Shown one piece after another: positions 22,559 through 59,616 of a stretch of 64,000 nt of DNA. The position numbers and the translations under genes were made by a program. The notes beneath the pieces were generated by a model that saw only the letters and a program-made list of their open reading frames with translations, was not told where the DNA came from and searched no databases. Each line of letters opens with the position of its first letter. Position 1 is the first letter of the stretch. Source of the stretch: Nitrososphaerota archaeon (GTDB lineage Archaea > Thermoproteota > Nitrososphaeria > Nitrososphaerales > Gagatemarchaeaceae); the NCBI GenBank assembly GCA_029785825.1, contig JAFLYY010000001.1, positions 372,001 to 436,000 on the forward strand, written 5' to 3'.

Positions 22559-22596
22559 AGCTTAAAACCACCTTCGGGCCTGGCCCGTTTTCGAGC

Positions 22597-22704
22597 GCCC
22601 TGGTCGTATAGAGGTCAGTATGCTGCCCTGTCACCGGCGTATCGCCGGCAGAGCGGCAGCGACCCGGGTTCGAAATCTCGGCGACGAAAGTCCCGGCCAG
22701 GGCG
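22597..22704 (+). tRNA. tRNA-Asp (GUC) with two introns
   Basis: Acceptor GCCCTGG (22597-22603) pairs with CCAGGGC (22697-22703), followed by discriminator G. Anticodon stem CTGCC (22623-22627) pairs with GGCAG (22655-22659), with GTC at 22630-22632. Intron 1 is 22634-22653, after position 37: CTGT pairs with GCAG between two 3-nt bulges, and the inner CCGGCG-type hairpin is perfect. T-stem CCGGG (22664-22668) pairs with CCCGG (22692-22696), but the loop is 23 nt; TTCG pairs with CGAA between bulges AAA (22673-22675) and AGT (22689-22691), which places intron 2 at 22675-22690 and restores a normal TTCGAAT loop. A TATA-like GCTTAAAACC precedes the gene by about 32 bp. No CCA is encoded. Confidence 0.9.
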
Positions 22705-59518: not shown

Positions 59519-59616
59519 GGGGTCGTAGTGTAGCTTGGTCCAGCATACCAGTGTGAATGACCTTCACGGTGAGCCTGGGGCGCTGGCGATCGCGAGTTCA
59601 AATCTCGCCGACCCCA
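59519..59616 (+). tRNA. tRNA-Pro (GGG) with non-canonical intron
   Basis: Acceptor GGGGTCG (59519-59525) pairs with CGACCCC (59609-59615), discriminator A. T-arm GCGAG-TTCAAAT-CTCGC and variable CGATC are normal. The anticodon region is interrupted: removing 59552-59573 joins CCAG to CCTGGGGCGCTGG, giving a perfect stem CCAGC/GCTGG and loop CTGGGGC with anticodon GGG. The intron (22 nt) forms an inner hairpin GTGAA/TTCAC next to TACC/GGTG with bulge AGT, a relaxed bulge-helix structure, at position 30/31. Read without this, the loop would appear as GAA (Phe) with impossible residues. TTTAAA at 59486-59491 is the promoter. Confidence 0.85.

Follow-up and report, generated by a model that had tools for sequence, protein, structure and literature searches.

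On its plus strand, the window (the whole stretch of DNA analysed here, 64,000 nucleotides) carries a tRNA-Asp(GUC) gene of 108 nt (22597–22704), which is conserved in genomes of the same genus and is divided into three exons by two introns, all on this strand. Exon 1 (22597–22633) supplies tRNA positions 1–37, including the anticodon GTC at 22630–22632, and is followed by a 20-nt intron (intron 1; 22634–22653) at the canonical site 37/38. Exon 2 (22654–22674; positions 38–59) contains the 5′ strand of the T-stem, CCGGG (22664–22668), and the adjoining TTCGAA (22669–22674), and is separated from exon 3 by a 16-nt intron (intron 2; 22675–22690) at the T-loop site 59/60. Exon 3 (22691–22704; positions 60–73) provides the 3′ strand of the T-stem (22692–22696), the 3′ acceptor strand and the discriminator G73 (22704), with which the gene ends without an encoded CCA. 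In addition, a TATA-box-like element, CTTAAAA (22561–22567, plus strand), lies 30–36 nt upstream of the gene; it is similar in relatives and may act as a promoter.

The first-pass annotation had claimed that the cloverleaf closes only when two segments are removed, and had set the cut sites at 22634/22653 and 22675/22690. We used a solver that enumerates introns of the bulge–helix–bulge (BHB) type, defined by a 4-bp exon–intron helix with a pair of 3-nt bulges, each cut behind its second base, and rates the cloverleaf left once they are removed. Its clear best solution removes exactly these two segments (score 31.4, versus 23.8 for the next), so that the cut sites proved correct to the base, and their removal leaves a complete cloverleaf with intact stems. 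As controls, none of 300 shuffles exceeded 21.1 (the top value), and no other site on the plus strand of the window did better than 23.9. The spliced 72-mer is called tRNA-Asp(gtc) by ARAGORN; the unspliced sequence received no ARAGORN call, and the Rfam tRNA model gave no match when run on the unspliced gene. Scanning the two strands of the window returned this gene and one tRNA-Pro, and nothing else. The latter, a tRNA-Pro(GGG) at 59519–59616 (plus strand), has a 22-nt BHB-type intron at site 30/31 (59552–59573) and is labelled Ile(aat) by ARAGORN. Self-splicing group I or group II introns were rejected as candidates for the tRNA-Asp gene, since 20 and 16 nt are too short for any catalytic core.

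Both junctions comprise a 4-bp helix between two 3-nt bulges, with the same pairings and bulges that had been described from inspection of the sequence. Specifically, CTGT in the anticodon loop (22628–22631) pairs with GCAG in intron 1 (22648–22651), including one G–U pair, and is accompanied by the inner helix CGGCG/CGCCG and the bulges CA|C and AG|C. At intron 2, TTCG in the T-loop (22669–22672) pairs with CGAA (22685–22688), flanked by the bulges AA|A and AG|T; because the inner helix (TC/GA) is only 2 bp long, the T-loop motif is of the relaxed type. With the exons held fixed and the intron letters shuffled, a 4-bp exon–intron helix plus an inner helix of the observed length arose by chance with P = 0.0004 for intron 1 and P = 0.0012 for intron 2. 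As a point against the BHB structure, the minimum-energy fold of the whole precursor is a different one (–56.2 kcal/mol, compared with –41.3 kcal/mol for the BHB cloverleaf). Energy for the full precursor proved uninformative, however: the mature sequence likewise misses the cloverleaf by energy alone, and the T-arm in isolation adopts the outer and central BHB helices.

The two-intron arrangement recurs in the tRNA-Asp genes of ~20 separately assembled genomes of the same genus, and all orthologues from the genus and family that parse through the T-loop region have the T-loop intron. Among these orthologues the loop of this intron is variable in sequence and length (15- and 17-nt versions of the intron occur), and the elements AAA TC...GA CGAA A-T are kept. 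The helices have variants: TC/GA is replaced by CC/GG in one member of the genus, and TTCG/CGAA by TTCA/TGAA in another family. The inner stem of intron 1 also varies in orthologues. Two genus members (G012 and G020) lack the anticodon intron and have a D-arm insertion together with the T-loop intron, as do two family genomes from other genera (G032 and G033), and the Nitrososphaerota relatives L051 and L097 combine a D-arm insertion, an anticodon insertion and the T-loop intron. The T-loop intron is therefore stable, while the anticodon intron and the D-arm insertions are gained and lost. Outside the family, tRNA-Asp genes with T-loop introns were found elsewhere in the order and the phylum, in other families (L062, L217, L218 and L221).

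That general tRNA finders miss the unspliced sequence would be expected if the locus were a decaying pseudogene with insertions, its work being done by a normal tRNA-Asp gene elsewhere. We consider this very improbable: splicing leaves intact stems, relatives have almost unchanged exons and the TATA-like box is conserved. In addition, the assembly, with an estimated completeness of 100%, yielded no tRNA-Asp gene free of introns, and the sole other copy in it, on contig C3 (G000:C3:1-37906; L215 and L216), has introns at the same two sites. The gene neighbourhood around that copy is of the same kind as at the window's locus, and C3 is 99.97% identical to contigs from the genomes of other species over the 3.1 kb compared; on both grounds C3 is most likely a contaminant of the assembly, and a location of its tRNA-Asp copy on a mobile element was rejected. 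A plasmid BLAST gave no match. An epimerase-like ORF on the same contig (L216:10193-12604) is split by a large insertion resembling an intein.

The T-loop intron was also sought in 398 Nitrososphaerota genomes with the pattern GGGTTCRAA N{8,38} YGAANNTCCC, which matched 81 of them, about a fifth; the reversed control pattern produced only about a dozen matches. A looser T-loop pattern, with 256 matches that were mostly chance, had been replaced by stricter ones, and a strict Asp-specific pattern matched only 5 genomes because too much of its sequence was fixed. In f10, a large family of the order that we tentatively take to be Nitrosopumilaceae (marine ammonia oxidisers), the T-loop introns parsed as examples lie in tRNA-Glu(UUC). 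After six strings with intact T-loops followed by a chance match had been set aside, 70 distinct intron strings were available for covariation analysis, in which exon base 57 and its intron partner form A–T in 46, G–C in 21, G–U in 3 and A–C in none; only this pair could be tested, since the remaining three positions of the helix are invariant in the pattern. The pairing of base 57 across the phylum and in the orthologues indicates that the exon–intron helix is probably maintained by selection. This bears on whether the 16 nt might instead be retained, giving a tRNA with an enlarged T-loop. Against such a tRNA, the 16-nt segment forms a BHB with the T-loop, one exon–intron pair covaries, and the loop of the insert varies freely while the BHB elements are kept; moreover, the T-loop must contact the D-loop. 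We regard retention as no more credible than pseudogene decay. Least probable of all is an origin of the introns by chance or misassembly, given that, short as the motifs are, the identical structure occurs in the ~20 congeneric genomes assembled separately and shuffling fails to reproduce it.

The enzymes for BHB splicing appear to be at hand, in that the genome encodes two tRNA-splicing endonuclease proteins and an RtcB RNA ligase (E = 3.9e-167). The alpha subunit of the endonuclease, encoded in the region of C1:698,699, has the Tyr, His and Lys motifs (VYEHG, DHAPY and RKQF), with chain 3p1z_B as its best match among solved archaeal endonuclease chains (E = 1.6e-42). The second protein (beta), encoded in the region of C1:1,415,312, has no His at the position corresponding to that of alpha, and is likely the structural subunit. 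Judged from these sequences, the pattern is that of an (alpha-beta)2 endonuclease, the type that would accept relaxed motifs; this architecture is given for Thaumarchaeota and has been tied to relaxed BHB substrates (PMC4090602; PMC4033280). In the mechanism that we propose, the 3′ part of each intron would pair with four exon bases shortly before the 5′ splice site and thereby present two 3-nt bulges, the heteromeric (alpha-beta)2 endonuclease would cleave behind the second base of each bulge, and the exons would most likely be joined by RtcB. The identification made in the first-pass annotation, a tRNA-Asp gene with two BHB introns, one of them in the T-loop, and both cut sites, is now backed by fold, conservation, covariation and the encoded enzymes. 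Overall, we put the probability at roughly 95% that 22597–22704 is a functional chromosomal tRNA-Asp gene whose precursor, which we infer to be spliced, is interrupted at 37/38 and 59/60 by archaeal BHB introns of the ordinary kind.

T-loop introns are common across archaea. An exact scan with CCGGGTTCGAA N{8,38} CGAANNTCCCGG, using one genome per species, found at least 119 matching stretches, and 64 of the 80 matches listed are complete tRNAs with a 59/60 intron. Among the matches listed, such tRNAs occur in Thermoplasmata, Asgard lineages, Woesearchaeota, Micrarchaeota, Aenigmatarchaeota, Nanoarchaeota, Thermoprotei and Nitrososphaerota, with glycine UCC as the commonest anticodon and Asp GUC as the second. 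Two bacterial matches of the collection scan (L076 and L083) were rejected as not being tRNAs. Exact 300-base matches link six contigs from genomes of this genus to contigs of named Nitrososphaerota or Thaumarchaeota MAGs, and assign the window to that phylum.

Introns are also frequent in the other tRNA genes of this genome, at sites that include the D-loop, 30/31, 37/38, the variable loop, 53/54 and 59/60. Our census covered tRNA loci and a few contig stretches. Among the 37 chromosomal tRNA genes resolved, ~32 have introns, 12 have two or more and the introns number at least 45, counts that are estimates because about nine expected tRNAs fell outside the resolved set, D-loop junctions are often ambiguous, and three variable-loop introns and those of tRNA-Arg(GCG) were set by eye. 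This intron density approaches that of Pyrobaculum; Pyrobaculum calidifontis, which belongs to another lineage, has 71 introns in 46 tRNA genes (PMC8450103). Several further loci are of interest in their own right. A tRNA-Ser(GCU) (L227; G000:C1:1516230-1516650, minus strand) parses with three introns, including one of 26 nt in the T-loop at 59/60. A probable tRNA-Trp(CCA) with a D-arm insertion (L280; G000:C1:1530500-1530900, plus strand) gave no solver solution, and its long anticodon intron holds C/D-box-like motifs. On contig C2, five clustered class II tRNAs for Leu and Ser (L214; G000:C2:150895-151549) are partly redundant with the chromosome, and a class II tRNA-Leu(CAA) (L025; G000:C2:151188-151274, plus strand) parses with C, not U, at position 33. 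The sampled end of C2 has 53% GC, with ParB-like and Orc1/Cdc6-like ORFs (named by eye) near the tRNA cluster, and the contig may be either a megaplasmid or a foreign contig.

The literature already documents multiple and noncanonical BHB introns, use of the 59/60 site, and noncanonical introns from Thaumarchaeota: 59/60 is a listed noncanonical intron site (PMC4090602), and the noncanonical tRNA introns published for Thaumarchaeota were used in training the BHB model of tRNAscan-SE 2.0 (PMC8450103). The first-pass annotation had singled out a T-loop intron in such a genome as worth recording, multiple tRNA introns being mainly reported from Thermoproteales-type archaea. The element of surprise does not hold, and rarity is not supported: the host is a nitrososphaerote, from a phylum with noncanonical tRNA introns on record, the site is a listed one, and the feature is shared by about a fifth of the phylum genomes sampled and by many other archaeal phyla. 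The introns described here resemble published archaeal noncanonical BHB introns (PMC4090602; PMC8450103) in site, length class, BHB geometry, predicted cutting after the second bulge base, the presence of a canonical intron alongside, the (alpha-beta)2 endonuclease that the genome appears to encode and the phylum (Thaumarchaeota is listed), but differ in their host, an uncultured high-GC nitrososphaerote lineage. As in the multi-intron tRNAs of Thermoproteales, some tRNAs have two to three introns, many of them noncanonical and genome-wide; Thermoproteales have 0.84 introns per tRNA gene, compared with 0.21 for all archaea (tRNAscan-SE 2.0, PMC8450103). Caldiarchaeum subterraneum likewise has D-, V- and T-arm introns, several in some genes, but introns interrupt only 13 of its 45 tRNA genes, well below the number here (PMC3293823). 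In the literature searched, mostly non-subscription, we found no description of this gene or of the T-loop introns of this lineage, including those in tRNA-Asp.

We give even odds to a broader reading, in which 59/60 is a second widespread archaeal tRNA intron site (in tRNA-Asp, -Glu and -Gly of Nitrososphaerota, Asgard, DPANN and Thermoplasmata) and, at the same time, the genus has independently come near the intron load of Thermoproteales. T-loop introns conceal real tRNA genes from general finders, as illustrated by ARAGORN, which reports a single tRNA in the window and mislabels it. Specialists might find the heavy intron load of this genus and the wide distribution of the 59/60 site useful; with nearly every tRNA interrupted and many related genomes available, the genus offers a natural set for following how introns are gained and lost in a lineage other than the hyperthermophilic Thermoproteales.
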